DNA of 64,000 bases, from NCBI RefSeq assembly GCF_900411375.1, contig NZ_LS422984.1, forward strand, positions 715,350 through 779,349, written 5' to 3'. Source of the DNA: Lentilactobacillus raoultii (GTDB lineage: Bacteria > Bacillota > Bacilli > Lactobacillales > Lactobacillaceae). This document shows positions 9,338-24,297 of the stretch, piece after piece; within the stretch, counting starts at the first letter, position 1; the number at the start of each line of letters is the position of its first letter. The notes beneath the pieces are model-generated. The model had not been told where the DNA came from, ran no database searches, and saw only the letters and a list, made by a program, of their open reading frames with translations. A program made the translations under genes and the position numbers.

Positions 9338-9487
9338 TTTTTTGCAACAAATCGGTAAAAACTTGCAAAATTGGTCTCTCAAAAAAGACAAATTTCATAG
9401 TGGTACGGTTGAAACTATCTGAGGTGTCCTTTCTGCAATAAACTAAAATCTTTTTGCAAAGAAACCGTAGAAGAGATTGCTTACAAT
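9338..9487 (+). promoter_or_regulatory. AraC-type four-half-site promoter, copy A
   Basis: TTGCAA half-sites lie at 9342 and 9363 (21 bp apart). A second pair, CTGCAA at 9433 and TTGCAA at 9454, is also 21 bp apart. TACAAT (9482-9487) follows, 22 bp after the last half-site, and there is no normal -35. The same layout occurs before 12423 and 14959. It is predicted to serve the SASA esterase gene at 9618 and to be bound by the AraC protein encoded at 11194-12051. Confidence 0.6.
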
Positions 9488-9617
9488 AGCTAATGGATCA
9501 CATACTTATATTGGTCAGTCAACCTGATCAGCTGGCTAAGTCAAGGATCAGCCTGCAAAAAGTCAATAACCTATCATATTACAGACCATATCGAATTCTT
9601 AAAAAGGAGCAACAACA

Positions 9618-10427
9618 TTGGCAACGAATGCAAAAAAGTTAACAATTATTTCGGCAGGCCAATCCAACATTGACGGTCGAGTACCGAGTTCAAAATTACC
9701 AGCCTACTTGTCATTGCCATTAGCGGGCTGCCACTATTGCAGTGACAAGACGCCGCAGCACGAACAAGGGATCTTTCAAGATGAATTAAAAGAAAGTGAT
9801 CTCTCAGATCATCGATGGGGCTTTGATTTAATCACTTACTATTACTTGCTTCATCAAAGTGATTGCCAAGACCTACACGTCATTAAATGGACGGAGGGTG
9901 GTACCTCAATTGATCCGACCGGTGATGGCGATAACCACTGGACAACTCATTTTGATGAATTAGCTGATCGAAGCCACTCGTTGTTACTAGGATTCACCAA
10001 TTTAATCAAAACCTGCCAACAAACCCAGCATAATCATTTGGATATTAAGGCAATGTTGTGGCATCAGGGTGAAGCAGACCGGGCTTCCTACTCGAAAGTA
10101 GCGGCTGAAAACTATTATCAAAATCTAAAGGACGTTTTTGCATACTGCCGCCAAGTGGTTGGGAATCCTGAACTGCCAATCATTTGTGGCACGGTGAGTC
10201 ATAATTCCAAACAATATGATGCCCAGGTTGAAAAAGCGACGATCCAGGTGGCCTCTGAAGATCCGAATATTCACTTAATTGATATGCAAAATGGGCAGTT
10301 GCTTGATGATTTTCACTTTAACGCAGCCAGCAGTGAACTGTTTGGTAAACGGGTGTACAATACGCTGATTGATGAACAAATTGTGACTGGCAAGCGGTTG
10401 GCTGACATAACCGCCCATGTTTATTAA
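9618..10427 (+). CDS. SASA/CE6-type carbohydrate acetylesterase
   Basis: 269 aa, cytoplasmic (no signal peptide). The sialate O-acetylesterase/CE6 signature is complete: the nucleophile block SAGQSNIDG near residue 15, the oxyanion block WHQGEADR near 150 and an acid-base block DDFHFN near 235. CE6 members remove acetyl groups from xylan or sialic acids. Placement beside GH115 and GPH symporters favours deacetylation of imported plant oligosaccharides. The TTG start has AAGGAG 8 nt upstream. It is transcribed alone from the AraC-type promoter and ends at a strong terminator. Confidence 0.85.
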   Translation: MATNAKKLTIISAGQSNIDGRVPSSKLPAYLSLPLAGCHYCSDKTPQHEQGIFQDELKESDLSDHRWGFDLITYYYLLHQSDCQDLHVIKWTEGGTSIDPTGDGDNHWTTHFDELADRSHSLLLGFTNLIKTCQQTQHNHLDIKAMLWHQGEADRASYSKVAAENYYQNLKDVFAYCRQVVGNPELPIICGTVSHNSKQYDAQVEKATIQVASEDPNIHLIDMQNGQLLDDFHFNAASSELFGKRVYNTLIDEQIVTGKRLADITAHVY

Positions 10428-10467
10428 AAAAGATCCCGCAGGTGTCAAAGCCCACGGGATTTTTTTA
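10425..10467. terminator. Bidirectional terminator
   Basis: ATCCCG and CGGGAT arms flanked by A and T tracts (10425-10467) sit between the convergent esterase gene and the 10465 membrane protein gene. Confidence 0.8.
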
Positions 10468-11091
10468 TTTAACGAAATTAGTGATTACTTGACCATCTCT
10501 AATCCGTAAAAGTGTTTCGGTTTTCGGAATTGCCGCTTGAATTTGAAGCGTATACCCCTTGCCAAGACTCTTCTTAATAGATTGGCTGGTCACTTTAAAA
10601 TTATTAACGGTTCGCGGCCACTTCAGCTGATTAGCTTGGGATGGGGACTGCTTTAAATACGTCATCGCTTTAATGAAGTTTCGGTCGGTAATTGTCAGCG
10701 AGTACGTTTTGGTTCGGCGATTAAACGTTAAGTTTCCCGTCTGACGATACTCACTTTTTAACTGTTTTTCGACATTTCGTTCATGCAATTTTTGAGCAGC
10801 AGCCTGTTTTTTAGCTGTGCCATCATCAAAAACGGTATTTTGTGCATGGCTGGACAAATGAGCGGCTTTCTCAGATTCTTTTTGGGAAAGCTTCTTTTTT
10901 GTCTCAGTTTGGATCCGGGCATATTTGGGCGTGGTCACACTCCCGTAAACGAAAAAGGCCACGCCAATTAATCCCAGAACGACGAATAACACACGACTCT
11001 CGTTTTTATAGGTGGCGGTTCGAAACGAAAAAATACTTAGAAAAATCATGATAATACCAGCAATAATTAGAAAGACAGATATCTGAAGAAT
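10465..11091 (-). CDS. Membrane-anchored protein of unknown function
   Basis: About 208 aa. Two N-terminal transmembrane segments precede a Lys/Gln/Glu-rich stretch likely to be coiled coil (about residues 60-110) and a C-terminal folded region with no motif I recognise. The first ATG (11049) has no ribosome site and cuts into the first helix. The frame stays open upstream to a stop at 11094. An ATT at 11091 has AAAGGGG 9 nt before it and gives a complete helix, so a non-standard start is proposed. No neighbour suggests a role. Confidence 0.6.
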   Translation of the reverse strand: MLQISVFLIIAGIIMIFLSIFSFRTATYKNESRVLFVVLGLIGVAFFVYGSVTTPKYARIQTETKKKLSQKESEKAAHLSSHAQNTVFDDGTAKKQAAAQKLHERNVEKQLKSEYRQTGNLTFNRRTKTYSLTITDRNFIKAMTYLKQSPSQANQLKWPRTVNNFKVTSQSIKKSLGKGYTLQIQAAIPKTETLLRIRDGQVITNFVK

Positions 11092-11193
11092 CTAACTCAA
11101 CCCCTTTAACACGCTTGTTTACTTATTTAAATATAAAGTGTCAGAGTTGAATTGTAAACTTTTAACACTGCCATAGGATGTCAATGGCCGGTA

Positions 11194-12051
11194 TCAATGC
11201 TTGGCAAGACTGCTTTTCTTATATTTTCCGGGTGAAATACCGGTATACTTCGTAAATGCTCGGATGAAATTGCTGTAGTTACCGAATCCGGCCTGGTTGC
11301 AGGCATCGGTTACTGAGTTGCCGGCTTTCAACAAGATTTTGGCTTCGTCAAGGCGTCTTTCGGTGATGTATTTATGAATCGATAGCCCCATGTATCGTTT
11401 GAAATAACGATTCAGATAGCTTTGATTCAAATAAAAATGTTGGCTGATCGTTGAGAGACTGAGGTCACCGGTGAGATGGTCATCCACAAATTGAATCATT
11501 TTTTGTAATAGTGGTGGGATAATATTCTGCAGCTGATTTTTGACATGAGCCACCTGATTGATTAATAACAGAATTTCAGATAAAAGGACCTCTTCGCGAA
11601 TATCGTTGCCAAAAGTATCATCTTGATGATTTAAAACGTCGGCTAATTTATCTGAAAGTGAGACAAAGTAGGACAGTTGATCTTCATTTAGCTTTAGAAG
11701 ATTGACTTCCGATGAAGCATCTGGCTGAAAACACTTTGAGAGATCAGTCTTAAAGGTCGAGAGTTGTTTAACAAGATCCACACGAATATTAATGAAAATT
11801 CGTTCATATAGACTATCATCGTTAGTGACGGCCCGGTGCCAGTGGCCATTGGGAATTGCGACTAGATAGCCCCGCACCATCGGATAAGCTGACGAACGCG
11901 TCCAAAAAGTCACGTTGCCGGCCAGAAAAGCATAGAGTTCATAGTGATTACTGTGTTGATGAAACGGTGAGTCGTGAAATCGATTGCTATTATGGGAACA
12001 AACAACATCCTCAATAATGGTTCCGTCCGCCGGCATATCAACAATGTTCAT
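11194..12051 (-). CDS. AraC-family transcriptional regulator
   Basis: 285 aa. The N-terminal half is a cupin sensor domain (FHQHSNHYELYAFLAGNV), and the C-terminal about 100 residues form two helix-turn-helix motifs: LSTISQHFYLNQSYLNRYFK and ACNQAGFGNYSNFIRAFTK, followed by GISPGKYK. This family usually activates sugar-use genes on binding a ligand. ATG at 12051 has AAAGGAGG 9 nt upstream; an earlier TTG is not supported. One putative operator half-site overlaps its own ribosome site at 12070, so autoregulation is likely. Shared operators before 9618, 12423 and 14959 make it the probable local activator. Confidence 0.92.
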   Translation of the reverse strand: MNIVDMPADGTIIEDVVCSHNSNRFHDSPFHQHSNHYELYAFLAGNVTFWTRSSAYPMVRGYLVAIPNGHWHRAVTNDDSLYERIFINIRVDLVKQLSTFKTDLSKCFQPDASSEVNLLKLNEDQLSYFVSLSDKLADVLNHQDDTFGNDIREEVLLSEILLLINQVAHVKNQLQNIIPPLLQKMIQFVDDHLTGDLSLSTISQHFYLNQSYLNRYFKRYMGLSIHKYITERRLDEAKILLKAGNSVTDACNQAGFGNYSNFIRAFTKYTGISPGKYKKSSLAKH

Positions 12052-12069
12052 TGTAAGAAACCTCCTTTT

Positions 12070-12210
12070 TTGCAAATAATTTGGCTTAAACTTGCAAAAT
12101 TGACACGAAATTTAACGATTTTCCGACTTACTAAATTTTTGAAAGCGGTTAGAAGTCACTTTTTACGATAAATCAAGGTAATTTTGCAAAGAACATGCTA
12201 AATAAATCGC
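12070..12210 (+). promoter_or_regulatory. AraC-type four-half-site promoter, copy B
   Basis: Half-sites TTGCAA lie at 12070 and 12092 (22 bp apart), and TTACGA at 12163 and TTGCAA at 12184 (21 bp apart). The element TTACAAT follows 21 bp after the last half-site, giving a -10 of TACAAT near 12212. The distal pair overlaps the ribosome site of the divergent araC gene, so one control region could govern both directions. Confidence 0.6.
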
Positions 12211-12380
12211 TTACAATTATCAGTGTACAAGAGATTAACCGTTAAGTAAACAAGTTCTCCTATTATGCCATTATTATTTTACACGTTAAGCGTCATTAGA
12301 AATTGCTTGTTTATTGATTCTTATAGCGGTTGGAAAGGATGGGTCAAGTTGGTTAGGTAGCCCAAATTTTCTGAATAAAA

Positions 12381-12395
12381 ATGTAAGCGGATTCT
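12381..12395 (+). promoter_or_regulatory. CcpA cre site upstream of GPH symporter 1
   Basis: ATGTAAGCGGATTCT matches the cre consensus WTGNAANCGNWNNCW at every position. It lies in the leader, downstream of the AraC promoter, where CcpA would act as a roadblock. The identical 15-mer occurs at 14920. Confidence 0.65.
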
Positions 12396-12422
12396 TATTA
12401 GCCATAGAAGGAGTTTTAAACA

Positions 12423-14019
12423 ATGGATGTCAATCATAAGCAACCAGTCGTTCACGACGGTTGGAATGAATACGCCCATAAGCGAGTCTACCAAAGTCGT
12501 GGCAAAGTCGGCATTTGGCGATCGCTCGGGTTTGGGGTTTTCTCATTCTTCAGTATTTCGATGCAGGGGTTAGTTGGTGCCTGGTTAATGTTTTTCTACA
12601 CCACCTTTGCCGGGTTGTCAGCTGGACAAGGCGCCACCATTTCCCTGATTGGCCGGGTAGCCGATGCAATTGTGTCACTGATCATGGGGAACATTTCCGA
12701 TAATGTTTATAAGTATAAAATTGGGCGTAAGTATGGGCGTCGGCACCTCTTCATTTTAGTTGCGGCGCTATCAGTGTTAGTGGCGATTACGATGTGGGTG
12801 GCCGGCATGAATTTCTGGTACTACCTGATTACGTATCTGATTGTGACTATTCTAATGTCAACCTTGCAGATTCCTTGGGAAACCTTACCTATATGAAATG
12901 ACCAAGGATTTCAATGCCCGAACCAAGATGTCGACAACTCGAATGGTCTTGGCTGGTTTAGGTGGGATGTTGACCCAATTTGTGCCGGCCCAACTATTCA
13001 AGTATTTCCCGAAGTCCTCTCCAGAACCATACATTTTAATGCAGGTCATTTTCTCAGTGGCCACGTTCTTCTTGATTTTAATCACGTACCACACCACTTG
13101 GGAACACTTTGTCACTAAGGATGAAGCTAAAAAACTTGAAGCTGAAGCCCTCGCTGAAAACAATGGTCAGAAACCGAATTTGAAATCTGAGTTAAAGAAC
13201 TATTTTTCAACCTTCAAAATTAAAACGTTCCGGCTTCACATGGAGATTTATTTAAGTTCTTATTTTGCGACCATCCTATTTTCAACAGTGTTTGTCTACT
13301 ACATCGTTTATGTACTGAAGATGTCAACCAGTGTTTCCGGATTCTTACAATCGTTAAGTATTGTTTCAATTCCGGTCACCATCTTAGCGGGCTTTGCGGT
13401 AACTAAATTCACTTACCGATCGCTTTACATTTTCGGTTACTCATTGATTTTAATCCGTGCGGTTAACTGGGCCTTCGTTGCCTTCACACGTCCGGCCCAC
13501 ATGATGATTTGGTTGATTGTTGGTATGTCGTTTTATGAAGTTGGCTTATACATTCTTTACTTTGCACCATGGAACGTCTTTCCATTTATTCCTGATTTGG
13601 ATACGTTGGTGACTGGTAAAAATCGAGCTGGTTTGTTTGCTTCGGTGATGACCTTTATCAACCAGATCAGTCAGGGATTGGCTTCAGTGGTTGCTGGTTA
13701 TTTACTGGACTTTGCCCACTTCCGTCAGTCTGCCGGGGCGGTTTCTCAACCTCAAAGCGCAACCGATATGATTATCTTTATCGTTTCTGGCGGGGTTGGG
13801 TTTATGATTCTGTTAGCCATGTTCTTCGCAGCCCGTTTCCACTTAAGCAAGAAAACCTTTAAGATTCTGGCTCAGGAACTGGGGCGTCTACAAAAGGGTG
13901 GCAGTATGAAGGACGTTGATCCGCACACTAAAGCCGTTTGTGAAGATTTAACCGGTGTGAAGTATGACACCATTGATTTCTGGAAAAAGAATGATCAGCA
14001 AACGTCTCAAAATAAGTAA
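12423..14019 (+). pseudogene. GPH-family sugar:cation symporter, split by a frameshift
   Basis: Two reading frames, 12423-12896 (157 aa) and 12898-14019 (373 aa), together match the intact 533-aa symporter at 14959 almost end to end. The break is at 12889-12896: CCTATATGAAATG here against CCAAACGAAATG in the intact copy, a one-base insertion that creates a TGA. The second half reopens at an ATG 1 nt after that stop, so re-initiation is conceivable. Each half has 5-7 transmembrane segments. Sequencing error is the simplest alternative. The gene has its own AraC-type promoter and cre site. Confidence 0.85.
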
Positions 14020-14049
14020 GGAATTGAAATTAGAAAGGATGATTGAGTT

Positions 14050-14418
14050 ATGGCAAAAGATCAAGCAGGTTGGAAAGCAGCACTTAAGTCACCAGAGGCA
14101 TTTAAAGCTTTTATTACCGATTATTTTAAAGATCATGAAGAACTGAGCGGTTCTTACGACATTCCATCGTATTATGAGCACTACACCGTTCGCCTGGACA
14201 GTCATGACGGGTTAGTAATCACATTAATTACCGGTGTTAACCAAACCGGCGAAAACGCGGCAACGGCTTTACCATTTAAGCAAACCGAAACGATGTCGAT
14301 TGAGGATTTTCGCAAGTTGATCCTGCATAAAAAGTTTGCGGATCAAAATATGTCACTGGCCGATGTGTTTCAAGTAGTGGCTGGTGTTCCGGATGATGAC
14401 GATCAAAAAGATGAGTGA
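14050..14418 (+). CDS. Small cytoplasmic protein of unknown function
   Basis: 122 aa, acidic, with no signal peptide or membrane segment; it ends in an Asp-rich tail. I recognise no family. It lies 30 nt after the split symporter gene and before a terminator, so it is probably co-transcribed with it under AraC and CcpA control. A GAAAGGA lies about 10 nt before the ATG. It may be an enzyme accessory or a sugar-binding protein, but nothing in the sequence tells. Confidence 0.7.
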   Translation: MAKDQAGWKAALKSPEAFKAFITDYFKDHEELSGSYDIPSYYEHYTVRLDSHDGLVITLITGVNQTGENAATALPFKQTETMSIEDFRKLILHKKFADQNMSLADVFQVVAGVPDDDDQKDE

Positions 14419-14471
14419 CTACACCATAAATAAACAATTCGTGGAAGTCTCTCGATAGAAAATAGGTATTT

Positions 14472-14525
14472 AAAAGGGATATTGGATGGTTGCTACGCGT
14501 CAACAACCATCTGGTATCCTTTTTA
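14472..14525 (+). terminator. Rho-independent terminator
   Basis: A long hairpin pairs GATGGTTG with CAACCATC, extended by AAAAGG/CCTTTT arms and ending in a T tract. It closes the first symporter transcript. Confidence 0.7.
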
Positions 14526-14610
14526 GTATGGGTTATCAAAAGACTGGCTAAAGATAATTTTTAAGCAATCCGGTGATGCCAAGTCATCAGCGCATTAAAT
14601 AGGTCGCTTT

Positions 14611-14755
14611 TTACAACTTATGTTGGCAAAAATTGCAAATTCAACACTTTTTGCCATCATTTTTTGATTTAAGTAAGAAATGAAACCGATTAAATGTCAA
14701 TTTTTACAATAAAACAAGCAAATTTTGCAAAGAAAATATGAAATAAATCGCTTAC
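14611..14755 (+). promoter_or_regulatory. AraC-type four-half-site promoter, copy C
   Basis: TTACAA at 14611 and TTGCAA at 14633 (22 bp), then TTACAA at 14704 and TTGCAA at 14725 (21 bp), with a TTACAAT element 21 bp after the last. The second half-site of the distal pair lies 71 bp before the proximal pair, as in copy B (71) and copy A (70). It should drive the 14959-22146 operon. Confidence 0.6.
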
Positions 14756-14919
14756 AATAATGATTGCATTAAAGATCGACGCACTCGTCTGATAGGGGTA
14801 TTTGAATGATACTATTATTTATCAAAATTCATTCCGTTAACAGAAACGGTTGTCCTTAGACTGGTGTGATCGGTTACCGGCTATTAATCACTTAATCTGT
14901 GAGTGATGAATAGCGATAA

Positions 14920-14958: not shown

Positions 14959-16560
14959 ATGGAAACAGACAGTAAAAATCAACAGCCAGTTGTCCACGAT
15001 GGCTGGAATGAATACGCGCATAAGCGGATTTATCAAAGTCGTGGCAAGATCGGCATTGGTCGTTCAGTTGGATTTGGGGTCTTCTCGTTTTTTAGTATCT
15101 CAATGCAAGGGCTGGTCGGTGCCTGGTTAATGTATTTCTACACGACATTTTGCGGATTAACCGCTGGCCAGGGTGCGACGATCTTCCTGATTGGTCGGGT
15201 GGCCGATGCCATTGTGTCACTGGTTATGGGAAATGTTTCGGATAACGTTTATAAGTATAAATTGGGCCGAATGTTTGGCCGACGACATTTGTTTATTTTA
15301 ATTGCCGCTCCATCGGTTTTAATTGCCATTACGATGTGGGTTGCCGGCATGAATTTTTGGTATTACCTGATTACTTATCTGATTGTCACAATTCTAATGT
15401 CGACCTTGCAGATTCCTTGGGAAACGTTGCCAAACGAAATGACCAAGAACTTCAATGAGCGAACAAAGATGTCAACCAGTCGAATGGTAATCGCTGGTTT
15501 GGGGAACATGTTAACTCAGTTCGTGCCGGCCCAACTTTTCAAGTACTTCCCGAAAACATCACCGACACCTTACATTTTAATGCAGGTCATCTTTTCCGTC
15601 TTAACGTTCTTCTTGATCATTATTACCTATCGAACAACTTGGGAACACTTTGTTACCAAAGATGGAGCCAAACGTCTTGACGCTGAAGCTCTAAAAGAAA
15701 ACAATGGCCAAAAGGCTAATCTTAAGTCGGAACTTAAAAATTACTTCTCGACCTTTAAAATTAAAACATTCCGCCTTCACATGGGAATTTACCTCAGTTC
15801 TTATTTTGCAACGATCCTATTCTCGACAGTCTTTGTTTACTACGTGGTTTATGTTTTAGGTAAATCTACCAGTACCTCAGGCTTCTTGCAGTCGTTGAGT
15901 ATTGTTTCTATTCCAGTTACCATCTTAGCTGGTTTTGCGATTACTAAATTTACCTATCGGGCACTTTACCTATTTGGCTACTCACTAATTCTAATTAGTG
16001 CTGCTGACTGGGCTTATGTGGCAATGGCTAAACCGGCTGGCATGATGATTTGGTTGATTGTCGGGATGACGTTCTACGAAATTGGATTGTACATTCTCTA
16101 CTTTGCCCCATGGAACGCCTTTCCGTTTATCCCGGATTTGGATACCTTGGTAACTGGGAAGAACCGTTCCGGGTTGTTTGCTTCCGTGATGACCTTTGTT
16201 AACCAAATCAGTGTCGGACTTGCCGGGGTGGTTGCCGGTTATCTATTGGATTTTGCTCACTTCCGTCAATCAGCCAGTGGCGCAGTTACACAACCTCAAA
16301 GTGCCATTAACATGATTACTTTTATCGTCTCCGGTGGTGTCGGCATTATGATTTTGTTGGCCATGTTCTTTGCCAGTCGTTTCCACTTGAGCAAGAAGAC
16401 ATTTAAAGTCTTGGCAACTGAACTGGTTCGCCTGCAAAAGGGTGGCAGTATGAAGGACGTTGATCCACACACTAAAGCCGTTTGCGAAGATTTAACCGGT
16501 GTGAAGTACGATTCAATTGACTTTTGGAAGAAGAACGACCAACCAACGAATCAAAAATAA
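14959..16560 (+). CDS. GPH-family sugar:cation symporter (intact copy)
   Basis: 533 aa with about 12 transmembrane segments. The GPH-family N-terminus is clear (IGRVADAIVSLVMGNVSDNV, then KLGRMFGRRH). GPH carriers import glycosides, pentosides and hexuronides with H+ or Na+. Nearby GH115 and acetylesterases suggest glucuronylated xylo-oligosaccharides as substrate, but this is inference. A strong GGAGGG precedes the ATG. It is the first gene of an operon running to 22146. A frameshifted close paralogue lies at 12423, so this copy may carry the function alone. Confidence 0.92.
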   Translation: METDSKNQQPVVHDGWNEYAHKRIYQSRGKIGIGRSVGFGVFSFFSISMQGLVGAWLMYFYTTFCGLTAGQGATIFLIGRVADAIVSLVMGNVSDNVYKYKLGRMFGRRHLFILIAAPSVLIAITMWVAGMNFWYYLITYLIVTILMSTLQIPWETLPNEMTKNFNERTKMSTSRMVIAGLGNMLTQFVPAQLFKYFPKTSPTPYILMQVIFSVLTFFLIIITYRTTWEHFVTKDGAKRLDAEALKENNGQKANLKSELKNYFSTFKIKTFRLHMGIYLSSYFATILFSTVFVYYVVYVLGKSTSTSGFLQSLSIVSIPVTILAGFAITKFTYRALYLFGYSLILISAADWAYVAMAKPAGMMIWLIVGMTFYEIGLYILYFAPWNAFPFIPDLDTLVTGKNRSGLFASVMTFVNQISVGLAGVVAGYLLDFAHFRQSASGAVTQPQSAINMITFIVSGGVGIMILLAMFFASRFHLSKKTFKVLATELVRLQKGGSMKDVDPHTKAVCEDLTGVKYDSIDFWKKNDQPTNQK

Positions 16561-19858: not shown

Positions 19859-21910
19859 TTGTCAGATAAAGAAACATTTACAATTTCCCGAGGGACGGTG
19901 GTCAAGGCAGCCGATTATCGAAATCCGGTGCTTAAAAATGCCCGCCTGATTCTTCAGCGGGATATTGAAGCAGCAACTAAGAAAAATGACGTGAAAAATC
20001 AAATCTATTTGAAACTTGATCCTGAAACTGCTGTTGAGGGGGATGACTATCAAATTCGGTTGACAGATGCCAAGTCGGTCACCATTTCCGCTAAAACAGC
20101 ATTAGGGGTGATGTACGGCACACTGGCCGTTTCAAGAAATGTCTTAAAGGTGGATGATTTCTGGTATTGGTTGGATCGACTGCCTCAAGTCCGCGATGTG
20201 GTTGTTTGGCACAACTTTGATCTTCACTTACCGCATTATCAAACTAAATACAGGGGTTGGTTTGTTAACGATGAACTGTTGATTTCGGGTTGGGAGGATC
20301 ATTCTTCCAACCGCTATGTTTGGCAGCGAATCTTTGAAACAGCACTTCGGGTTGGCTGTAACGTGATTATTCCCGGCACCGACGTTAATTCACAAGTTAA
20401 TCGCCGACCCGCCAAAGAATTTGGCTTAATGATTGCCCAACACCACGCGGAACCATTGGGAGCTAAGATGTTTGCCCGTGAATACCCGAATTTAACGGCT
20501 TCGTTTGTTAAATACCCGGATTTGTTCAGAAAACTTTGGCGCGATGCCATCATGGATCAAAAGGGCACGCCAACCATTTACAGTCTCGGCTTTCGTGGTC
20601 AGGGTGACAAGCCGTTCTGGGAAGACGATGACAGTCGGGAATGGGATGAACAGGCAATTGCCGACGTGATCAATGGCATTATTGAGGAACAGTACGAGAT
20701 GGTGAAACAACTCGACCCAGGGGCACCGATGGCTTTGAATGTCTACGGCGAACTGACCGGTTTGTATAATAAAGGGTTGGTTAAGATTCCAGACGACGTC
20801 ATTGAAATTTGGGCTGATAGTGGTTACGGTAAGATGGTTTCCAGACGACAGGGATTGGATAATCCTCGTTCACCGATTCTAGAGGCCCCAAACCCTCATA
20901 ATCGTCAACGGGGCATTTACTATCACGTAGCTTTCCATGATCTCCAAGCTTCAAATTTCTTGGGCTTACTATCCAATAGTCCAGCCTTTGTTTCATCAGA
21001 GCTTTCAAAGGTTCGTGAACACCATTTTGATACATTGGAGCTGATCAACACCGGAAGTATCAAGCCACACATTCTTTATTTGAGAGAAGTTGCCAAATCT
21101 TGGTTGGCAGATTATTCGGCGCGGGATAACGAGATAATTTTAAAGGACTATGTGTCGACTTATTATGATGAAAAGCAGCCTGAATTAGTTGAATTATACA
21201 GTAACTATTGGCAGGCAGTCGTCCAATACGGGCCACATTCGGATGAAACGGCCGGCGATGAATTTGCGCCTTACTTGATTAGACGCTTGATCAAGGCGTG
21301 GGTCGGTCATCATGATAAGCTGAGTGACGCTGGTTGGGTGGTTGATGCTAAACTACCGGAAGCGTTGAAGAAGTTAGATGAGATGATCACACCAAAACTA
21401 CCAGATTGGGAAGCGCTGCGGTTGCAAACGAAGCAATTACTGTTGACTTTAAAACCTGCTGATGCGACCCGGCTATACGGCGATTTTTATTTGAGTGTGA
21501 TTAATCAGGCTCAAGGATTAAAAGCGTTGCATTTGGCGATTCGGGCCTATCAAGAGGCAACTGGGGCAACTAAAGGTGAGGATTACCTCAAACCATTCTT
21601 AACTGCTGATGAGGCTTACCAGGCCATGAAAGAAATCGTGATTGCTGAAACGACTAATCCTTCAGGAAAATGGGCGGACTTCTATCAAAATGACGGCTAT
21701 AATAATGTGCCGTTAGCGGTTGCCCAGTTGAAGTTTTTGCGGCATTATCTAAGAGTCCTGGGCGATAGCGATGATGAAGATGGCTGGGAACACCACTTCG
21801 TTAAAGCAACGGCTGAGGCTCGGGTAATGACACTGTCAAACACTCGACCGGCAATGGGAGACGACCAACTGGCCAAAAAACTGCGTGAGCGTTTGATCCA
21901 TCATCTATAA
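19859..21910 (+). CDS. GH115-family alpha-glucuronidase
   Basis: 683 aa, no signal peptide, so cytoplasmic. It matches the glycoside hydrolase family 115 pattern: YRGWFVNDE near residue 120, GCNVIIPG, YSLGFRGQGDKPFW, VYGELTGLYNKGL and ADSGYGKM, then GIYYHVAFHDLQ and INTGSIKPHILYL. GH115 enzymes release (4-O-methyl)glucuronic acid from xylan or arabinogalactan. It is shorter than many family members, so accessory domains may be missing. The TTG start has a GGAAAGGAAG site 7 nt before. With the esterases it implies stripping of acetyl and glucuronyl groups after import. Confidence 0.85.
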   Translation: MSDKETFTISRGTVVKAADYRNPVLKNARLILQRDIEAATKKNDVKNQIYLKLDPETAVEGDDYQIRLTDAKSVTISAKTALGVMYGTLAVSRNVLKVDDFWYWLDRLPQVRDVVVWHNFDLHLPHYQTKYRGWFVNDELLISGWEDHSSNRYVWQRIFETALRVGCNVIIPGTDVNSQVNRRPAKEFGLMIAQHHAEPLGAKMFAREYPNLTASFVKYPDLFRKLWRDAIMDQKGTPTIYSLGFRGQGDKPFWEDDDSREWDEQAIADVINGIIEEQYEMVKQLDPGAPMALNVYGELTGLYNKGLVKIPDDVIEIWADSGYGKMVSRRQGLDNPRSPILEAPNPHNRQRGIYYHVAFHDLQASNFLGLLSNSPAFVSSELSKVREHHFDTLELINTGSIKPHILYLREVAKSWLADYSARDNEIILKDYVSTYYDEKQPELVELYSNYWQAVVQYGPHSDETAGDEFAPYLIRRLIKAWVGHHDKLSDAGWVVDAKLPEALKKLDEMITPKLPDWEALRLQTKQLLLTLKPADATRLYGDFYLSVINQAQGLKALHLAIRAYQEATGATKGEDYLKPFLTADEAYQAMKEIVIAETTNPSGKWADFYQNDGYNNVPLAVAQLKFLRHYLRVLGDSDDEDGWEHHFVKATAEARVMTLSNTRPAMGDDQLAKKLRERLIHHL

Positions 21911-22478: not shown

Positions 22479-24279
22479 GTATTCCCCACGGATGTAGGGG
22501 TGATCCCACATTTACAGCTGCACAGACATTCAGTATTGCGGTATTCCCCACGGATGTAGGGGTGATCCTATCATGTCGTGGTCTCACGCTGATCTTAGAT
22601 TGTATTCCCCACGGATGTAGGGGTGATCCCAAAGCTATTCAAGCCATTCCTCAACCGGACACGTATTCCCCACGGATGTAGGGGTGATCCTACTTCACTT
22701 GGCGGCCGGTGTGGATGTACGCTGTATTCCCCACGGATGTAGGGGTGATCCTGAATTCCGGATCCTTACCAATTGGGCTGTTAGGTATTCCCCACGGATG
22801 TAGGGGTGATCCTGTGGTCGCACTATTAACTTTAATAATAATGTTGTATTCCCCACGGATGTAGGGGTGATCCAAATCTTCAAAAAGTTGGCAAACTAGC
22901 AAAAAAGTATTCCCCACGGATGTAGGGGTGATCCTTTCAACAACAGGAAATGTAAATTCCGCGCTTGGTATTCCCCACGGATGTAGGGGTGATCCTACCC
23001 GATCATCGGCCAATAATGCTTCATCTAAGTATTCCCCACGGATGTAGGGGTGATCCCAATTAGCGCTCCCAACTCCCCGTACGGACTTCGTATTCCCCAC
23101 GGATGTAGGGGTGATCCTTATACGAGAGTCCGTTTGAGTCGATGCTCACGGTATTCCCCACGGATGTAGGGGTGATCCTTTCATCAATATTAGCGATTCG
23201 TATTTTGGTTTGTATTCCCCACGGATGTAGGGGTGATCCTCATCAATTATGTGCATCATGATCACCTCTCTTCGTATTCCCCACGGATGTAGGGGTGATC
23301 CTCCGGTCATTGAATTGGTCGCATGCAAATTAGCGTATTCCCCACGGATGTAGGGGTGATCCCCTGACCAGTGCCGCTTCCCTGAGAGTCTAAAGGTATT
23401 CCCCACGGATGTAGGGGTGATCCTCTGTGTTTGGTTAATGCGGTTTTTACCGTTAAGTATTCCCCACGGATGTAGGGGTGATCCTATAACTACGGTTTGC
23501 AAATGGCGGCCTATAAGGTATTCCCCACGGATGTAGGGGTGATCCCTTTTTCGGACCAAATCGGTAAAAATCGGACCAGTATTCCCCACGGATGTAGGGG
23601 TGATCCTGTACTCATCGGCGGTGTCAAAGTCCTTTTTGCGTATTCTTCACGGATGTAGGGGTGATCCTTGCAAAAGTTCGGATTGCGGAATCGTGACATT
23701 AGTATTCCCCACGGATGTAGGGGTGATCCTTACAAGCCGGCTTATGACTCAGGATATCTGCTGTATTCCCCACGGATGTAGGGGTGATCCTTCGTCGGGC
23801 CAGTCCTTTGGCACCTTCCAAAAGTATTCCCCACGGATGTAGGGGTGATCCTCTGTAAGGTGGCCGTTGACGGCTGCCAATTGCGTATACCCCACGGATG
23901 TAGGGGTGATCCTATCAACGATTCTGAGCAACAACCGCCACTAAAGTATTCCCCACGGATGTAGGGGTGATCCTTAATTACTCGCTGGCGATTGCAGTAG
24001 GCGCGGGTATTCCCCACGGATGTAGGGGTGATCCTCGCACTGCACTTTGAATTCGAGTAAACGCGTGGGTATTCCCCACGGATGTAGGGGTGATCCCTAA
24101 TAGTCAGCGAAGTAAACCTGTGGTCCAATGTATTCCCCACGGATGTAGGGGTGATCCCTTTGATGCGGTGTGTAACTATCCGGCTCAAAAGTATTCCCCA
24201 CGGATGTAGGGGTGATCCCACTGCTTCTGAAAAGGGATCGGCTCCAGAATGGTATTCCCCACGGATGTAGGGGTGAATT
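22479..24279 (+). CRISPR. CRISPR array 2 (type I-E-like), complete
   Basis: Thirty repeats begin at 22479, 22541, 22602 and so on to 24252, giving 29 spacers of 33-34 bp. The repeat differs from array 1 at one position: CACGGATG here against CACGTATG. Variant repeats occur at 23640 (TTCTTCAC) and 23885 (TATACCCC). The last repeat at 24252 loses its final TCC, marking the trailer. No cas genes are nearby, so it must use remote effector proteins, perhaps the same as array 1. Confidence 0.98.
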
Positions 24280-24297
24280 TTTGGAGGGAGGGATGAT

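Follow-up and report, generated by a model that had tools for sequence, protein, structure and literature searches.

The window analysed here, a stretch of 64,000 nucleotides at positions 715350-779349 of its contig in the genome of Lentilactobacillus raoultii, carries three promoters, P1 (before the gene that starts at 9618), P2 (before 12423) and P3 (before 14959), each preceded by two pairs of TTGCAA-type half-sites, a distal and a proximal one. We are inclined to believe, with a little more confidence than doubt, that these promoters form a sugar-responsive regulon of the AraC type in which a second, lineage-specific operator pair would let a second regulator dimer cooperate with the first. 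Binding, activation, cooperation and the inducer are all predicted here from sequence comparison.

At P1 the distal pair lies at 9338-9368 (TTGCAA at 9342 and 9363), the proximal pair at 9433-9459 (CTGCAA at 9433, TTGCAA at 9454) and the TACAAT -10 element at 9482-9487. The corresponding elements are found at 12070-12097 (TTGCAA at 12070 and 12092), 12163-12189 (TTACGA at 12163, TTGCAA at 12184) and 12212-12217 for P2, and at 14611-14638 (TTACAA at 14611, TTGCAA at 14633), 14704-14730 (TTACAA at 14704, TTGCAA at 14725) and 14753-14758 for P3, all given on the plus strand. The half-sites stand 21 bp apart in every proximal pair and in the distal pair of P1, and 22 bp apart in the distal pairs of P2 and P3. 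From the second distal to the first proximal half-site the distance is 70, 71 and 71 bp at P1, P2 and P3, which places the pair centres 91, 92.5 and 92.5 bp apart (8.67, 8.81 and 8.81 turns at 10.5 bp per turn). TACAAT starts 28 bp from the start of the last half-site at all three promoters, with 22 bp between them, and no consensus -35 is present at P1, P2 or P3, where the hexamer 17 bp 5' of the -10 reads AAGAAA, AAGAAC and AAGAAA, respectively. Thus, the positions and distances reported in an earlier sequence-only reading of this DNA, including a TACAAT without a consensus -35, were reproduced at all three promoters. Its description of the half-sites as TTRCAA holds for 10 of the 12 but fails for CTGCAA of P1 and TTACGA of P2, both of them first proximal half-sites. 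The layout of the proximal pair is that of class II AraC-type control, with a direct-repeat pair at the -35 place and a fixed distance to the -10, and activation is predicted on this ground.

The proximal pair is likely bound by the AraC-family regulator encoded at 11194-12051 on the minus strand. It combines a cupin-type N-terminal domain (Cupin_2, 28.5 bits with a cut-off of 27.2; AraC_binding, 25.7 bits with a cut-off of 21.1), for which a ligand role is predicted, with a C-terminal AraC-type double helix-turn-helix (HTH_18, 5.8e-22; HTH_AraC, 4.9e-18 with two stretches), and its 16 matches in the PDB include the DNA-binding domains of AraC, MarA and RamA. The sequence-only reading had named the same regulator, and for the proximal pair we agree, because the pair with its -10 (hereafter, the module) and the regulator stand together in relatives. 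The assignment of the three promoters to one regulon is supported as well. Orthologues (42-58% identity, E 1e-50 or better) were found in 10 genomes besides its own among 350 genomes of the family, a further genome (G021) holds a split orthologue, and an order-wide search of 395 genomes gave no new orthologue at E 1e-50. The sample of relatives comprised 12 regulator loci, two loci taken to be the L041 and L037 contigs again not being recounted; the protein alignment covers 11 of the 12, the split G021 regulator (L047) having been omitted and its promoters retained.

When these loci were viewed without any pattern, one intact pair was seen to adjoin the regulator in 11 of 12. It consists of a TTTTGCAA-like half-site, then GCAAAG or GCGAAG 21 bp on, then a TTACAAT-type -10. 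In the twelfth locus (L042:10240-10480, genome G022) the pair next to the regulator is interrupted behind its first half-site, apparently by an SGNH-type gene remnant (cf. L039; judged by eye), and an intact module stands downstream of the cut pair. Altogether, the relatives gave 17 modules from 13 loci, copies ahead of other genes included. In G015 a single-pair module (L052:1218-1299, contig C90) stands apart from both regulator copies of this genome (C157 and C194). The search pattern fixed the 21-bp and 28-bp distances, so modules with other distances would be missed, and since 28 bp was fixed, the 17 modules do not test the distance to the -10. A stricter first pattern, with TTTT[GA]CAA as the second half-site, had matched the three window promoters and nothing in the 12 loci from relatives, since NNGCAAAG opens the second half-site in most of them; the pattern was later loosened.

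Across the genus, GCAAAG-N17-GNTTACAAT was matched in 9 of 24 genomes, which are the nine that also carry the regulator, broken in one case, with 0 of 24 for the reversed control. Fifteen of the 17 matches are true modules, those on contig 8 of G013 and contig 9 of G021 are not. Among 397 family genomes 19 were matched, 11 of these with the regulator. The other eight have no listed regulator match and carry matches unlike the module. The reversed control gave six matches in five genomes, and the pattern is thus at background outside the genomes of the regulator. On a model built from the relatives only, the proximal pairs of the window take the first three ranks when every position of the 64 kb is scored on either strand, that of P1 at the top. 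We conclude that the proximal pair with its -10 is a putative operator conserved together with the regulator.

The sequence-only reading also expected all four sites to be conserved in relatives, and here only the proximal half of the design was kept. Within 200 bp upstream of the relatives' modules, on both strands and with the interior of the regulator gene included, a distal-like pair was found in 0 of 17; on the same model, the best extra pairs scored between -5.2 and 4.8 forward and between -8.8 and 6.3 reverse. The co-conservation of distal and proximal sites by which araBAD-type looping is judged was thus absent from this range in 17 of 17 modules. Among the genomes examined, the distal pair is apparently specific to this one, and we infer that it was gained in this lineage rather than lost elsewhere. 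Tandem duplication of the operator-plus-promoter was considered as its origin and rejected: nine comparisons of the stretches that follow the distal pairs with those that follow the proximal pairs gave a lowest p of 0.338, and 51 comparisons with the 17 relative modules gave three at p 0.03-0.06, all for P1, which is about the chance level. An old duplication is possible as the source.

Within the window, the distal half-sites look selected. In a motif-blind scan of the 160 bp that precede the first proximal half-sites, in which 10-mers were compared and shuffles served as control, they came out as the 10-mers best conserved between P2 and P1/P3 (0/1000 shuffles), and for P1 and P2 only, their conservation was equalled in 1/1000 shuffles. 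By alignment, the P2 spacer resembles that of P3 (0/1000 shuffles), and the two are hence homologous; the P1 spacer resembles neither (p 0.34 and 0.75 relative to shuffles). P1 has kept its distal half-sites while the intervening DNA drifted, which, together with the scan, points to selection. A genome search for the four-site pattern, proposed together with the sequence-only reading, was performed with TGCAAA-N74..94-TTTTGCAAAG. It gave three matches in the 3.07-Mb genome, P1, P2 and P3 themselves, and none for the reversed pattern. In the other 23 genus genomes the pattern was matched once each in G003, G017, G020 and G022, never at the regulator locus.

A single distal pair taken alone is only moderately unlikely to arise by chance: on the relatives-only model, the pairs of P1, P2 and P3 score 13.8, 13.5 and 12.1 on the forward strand and 14.5, 18.7 and 10.5 on the reverse, and in 3000 trials with random 200-bp stretches of like composition a score of 12 on either strand was reached in 2.9% of cases and one of 14.5 in 0.9%. 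That the distal pair is fortuitous, or belongs to another regulator, would also be in line with the occurrence of TTGCAA pairs 21-22 bp apart at five places in the genome (two of them here; two for the reversed control) and with 12 further matches to the regulator in this genome at E 0.001 or better. However, neither version sits well with a pair at three of three promoters at nearly equal distance (0/1000 shuffles), built from a half-site identical to that of the proximal pair, and we regard both as very improbable. Separately, a stretch in which two TTGCAA flank GTGTAACAAAC was seen to recur in six genus genomes; in the four cases that were read (L085, L087, L092 and L094, near position 1500) one frame is open throughout, so the stretch may be coding.

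In the mechanism that we favour, a regulator dimer on the proximal pair would recruit RNA polymerase by class II activation, as at araBAD, its downstream half-site occupying the place of the would-be -35. A second dimer on the distal pair, about 92 bp upstream, would most likely cooperate with the proximal dimer, probably across bent DNA, and would either raise occupancy or make the off state tighter; at P2 this second dimer would also sit in the leader of the regulator gene. Several observations weigh against this mechanism. The distance from pair to pair does not correspond to an integral number of turns, and the orientation of the distal pairs is ambiguous, since TTGCAA is a palindrome that reads the same on both strands; at P1 and P2 the reverse reading scores at least as high as the forward one. 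The distal half-sites score far under the proximal ones (12.1-13.8 vs 21.0-29.0 forward on the relatives' model). Moreover, the distal pair is known from one genome only, the relatives carry the same layout with a single pair, and the origin of the extra pair has left no residual similarity in the post-pair alignments.

DNA looping at these promoters is possible. The loop at each promoter that had been proposed earlier gains nothing from helical phase, because the centre spacing is 8.67-8.81 turns, nor from the direct-repeat orientation of the distal pairs, which is ambiguous. The spacing, which the sequence-only reading had called fixed, was indeed found at 70, 71 and 71 bp, but its conservation amounts to one independent comparison and not three, because the P2 and P3 spacers share ancestry. 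We therefore hold the loop less firmly than it was stated. A more specific alternative is an araBAD-like repression loop, in which a dimer would bridge a distal and a proximal half-site without inducer and would be shifted by the inducer to the proximal pair, activating transcription. The common geometry of the three promoters fits such a loop, as does the fact that the best-conserved upstream stretches are the distal half-sites, and araBAD provides a precedent (PMC7408454, in the portion of that source available). Nevertheless, 8.7-8.8 turns and one independent comparison of spacing count against it, about 92 bp makes a short loop, and one bridging half-site would suffice, yet a full second pair is kept; the 17 relative modules, moreover, have no distal pair at all. 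We consider the repression loop unlikely, though far from negligible.

The region upstream of the regulator gene bears on another alternative. All four P2 half-sites fall in the regulator's leader. The ribosome-binding site of the regulator, GGAGG at 12061-12065 on the minus strand, is 4 bp from a P2 distal half-site, so that the distal pair adjoins this site and, contrary to what had been claimed, does not overlap it. In relatives it is the single pair that adjoins the ribosome site (judged by eye); in the window the distal pair stands there and the proximal pair lies 92-93 bp beyond the place of the relatives' pair. Back to back with P2, and 4 bp from its -10, stands the predicted promoter of the regulator, TTTACT-17-TACACT at 12222-12250 on the minus strand (read from 12250 to 12222). 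An element of this type, with 17-bp spacing, accompanies 8 of 11 regulator-adjacent modules in relatives and 0 of 6 modules elsewhere; in the window it is present at P2 and not at P1 or P3. As the two promoters overlap back to back, they probably cannot both be occupied at once. Feedback on the regulator, part of the sequence-only reading, is plausible and would predate the second pair; closeness to the ribosome site, however, is a property of the relatives' single pair and not of the four-site design.

It could therefore be proposed that the role of the distal pair is confined to the regulator gene, by autoregulation at P2, and that the copies at P1 and P3 are a relic of promoter copying. The place of the P2 distal pair, beside the ribosome site like the single pair of relatives, the promoter copies ahead of other genes in relatives and the homology of the P2 and P3 spacers would all agree with this. 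On the other hand, the P1 distal half-sites are exact although its spacer aligns with those of P2 and P3 at shuffle level, P3 retains 11 of 12 distal positions, and autoregulation alone is insufficient for P1 and P3 because neither has a divergent regulator gene. We find this account improbable, and keep cooperation between two dimers as the preferred reading.

Boxes for CcpA were called with WTGNAANCGNWNNCW, which we take to be the consensus of the catabolite-responsive element (cre). Perfect boxes occur three times in 64 kb, and two of these are at P2 (12381-12395, plus strand, near the ribosome site of the transporter gene) and P3 (14920-14934, plus strand). Boxes with one mismatch lie between the pairs of P2 (12139-12153) and P3 (14680-14694) and also cover the -10 of both promoters, and P1 has a single one-mismatch box, over its -10; such matches number 47 in the window, which predicts about 0.9 for the 1.2 kb that was scanned. 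In relatives, 11 of the 17 modules are followed by a perfect box. These CcpA-like boxes suggest that preferred sugars would shut off the promoters. On more doubtful ground, the lineage might have gained the second pair, spread it to all three promoters and thereby made a short-loop switch with two dimers out of an activator with one, with the old proximal half-site weakened (TTACGA and TTACAA at P2 and P3) and with a CcpA box in the bent stretch at two promoters, so that catabolite control would act on the loop. If this were true, the one-pair relatives would be its natural before-state.

The regulon is probably devoted to the uptake and trimming of glucuronoxylan-type oligosaccharides, a substrate assigned from the gene families. 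P1 precedes a SASA-family carbohydrate esterase (9618-10427, plus strand; PF03629), a probable xylan acetylesterase. A GPH-family sugar transporter gene (12423-14019, plus strand) follows P2 and is split over two frames (12423-12896 and 12898-14019); its paralogue and P3 target, a second GPH-family transporter (14959-16560, plus strand), is one open frame, and decay or a sequencing error would both fit. Between them, 14050-14418 on the plus strand encodes a small protein without a Pfam match (E 0.001), of which four relatives' loci hold two or three repeats. A GH115-family (alpha-glucuronidase-like) protein is encoded at 19859-21910 on the plus strand, within the run of genes that follows P3, and a GDSL-like and a beta-helix protein are also encoded around the promoters. 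In the 12 regulator loci, relatives of the transporter and of the GH115 protein are present in 12, of the small protein in 9 and of the SASA esterase in 7. No plasmid relatives were found for the regulator (search at E 1e-30) or for the P1 region, the only promoter region searched. In the open-licence literature no paper on this regulon was found, and the accessible portion of PMC7603016 contains nothing about the regulator. Further along, clustered regularly interspaced short palindromic repeats (CRISPR) form an array at 22479-24281 (30 repeat copies of about 28 bp, period 61-62 bp), and the open reading frame listed at 23146-23589 is a translation of this array.

With respect to known systems, the half-site spacing of 21 bp and the divergent regulator gene of E. 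coli araBAD are both shared here. At araBAD, in contrast, the upstream element is one half-site 211 bp away, while here it is a full pair at about 92 bp and at three promoters, and CcpA-like boxes take the place of the E. coli CAP site. MelR of E. coli, at melR-melAB, offers two site pairs for one AraC-family activator before a transporter operon, with a site of a global carbon regulator between them. Its pairs are closer together than those of the window; the box between pairs is here cre-like and not a CRP site, and it was not found at P1. According to the available part of PMC7408454, AraC at araBAD (I1-I2 plus O2) resembles the present case in that an AraC-family protein uses two direct-repeat half-sites at the -35 region and a further upstream site, with the pair centred at -52.5; here the centre is near -48 if TACAAT starts at -12. 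AraC-family rhamnose regulators with 21-bp direct repeats have been predicted in Bacillales, Bacteroides and Enterococcus (PMC3870299, in part); they differ in both sugar and regulator, and that part of the source mentions no second pair. Tandem-repeat sites of AraC type upstream of promoters have likewise been interpreted as activator sites (excerpt of PMC8579813). A defined motif, with 17 modules, has been obtained for this presumed xylan-sugar regulon of lactobacilli. A class II-like AraC regulon is known in kind, and what apparently differs here is the lineage-specific second operator pair. Since the relatives share the core genes, have an orthologue of the regulator and carry a single pair, and the present genome has two pairs at each of three promoters, the two would form a before-and-after pair for asking how a simple activator in bacteria acquires cooperative or looped control.

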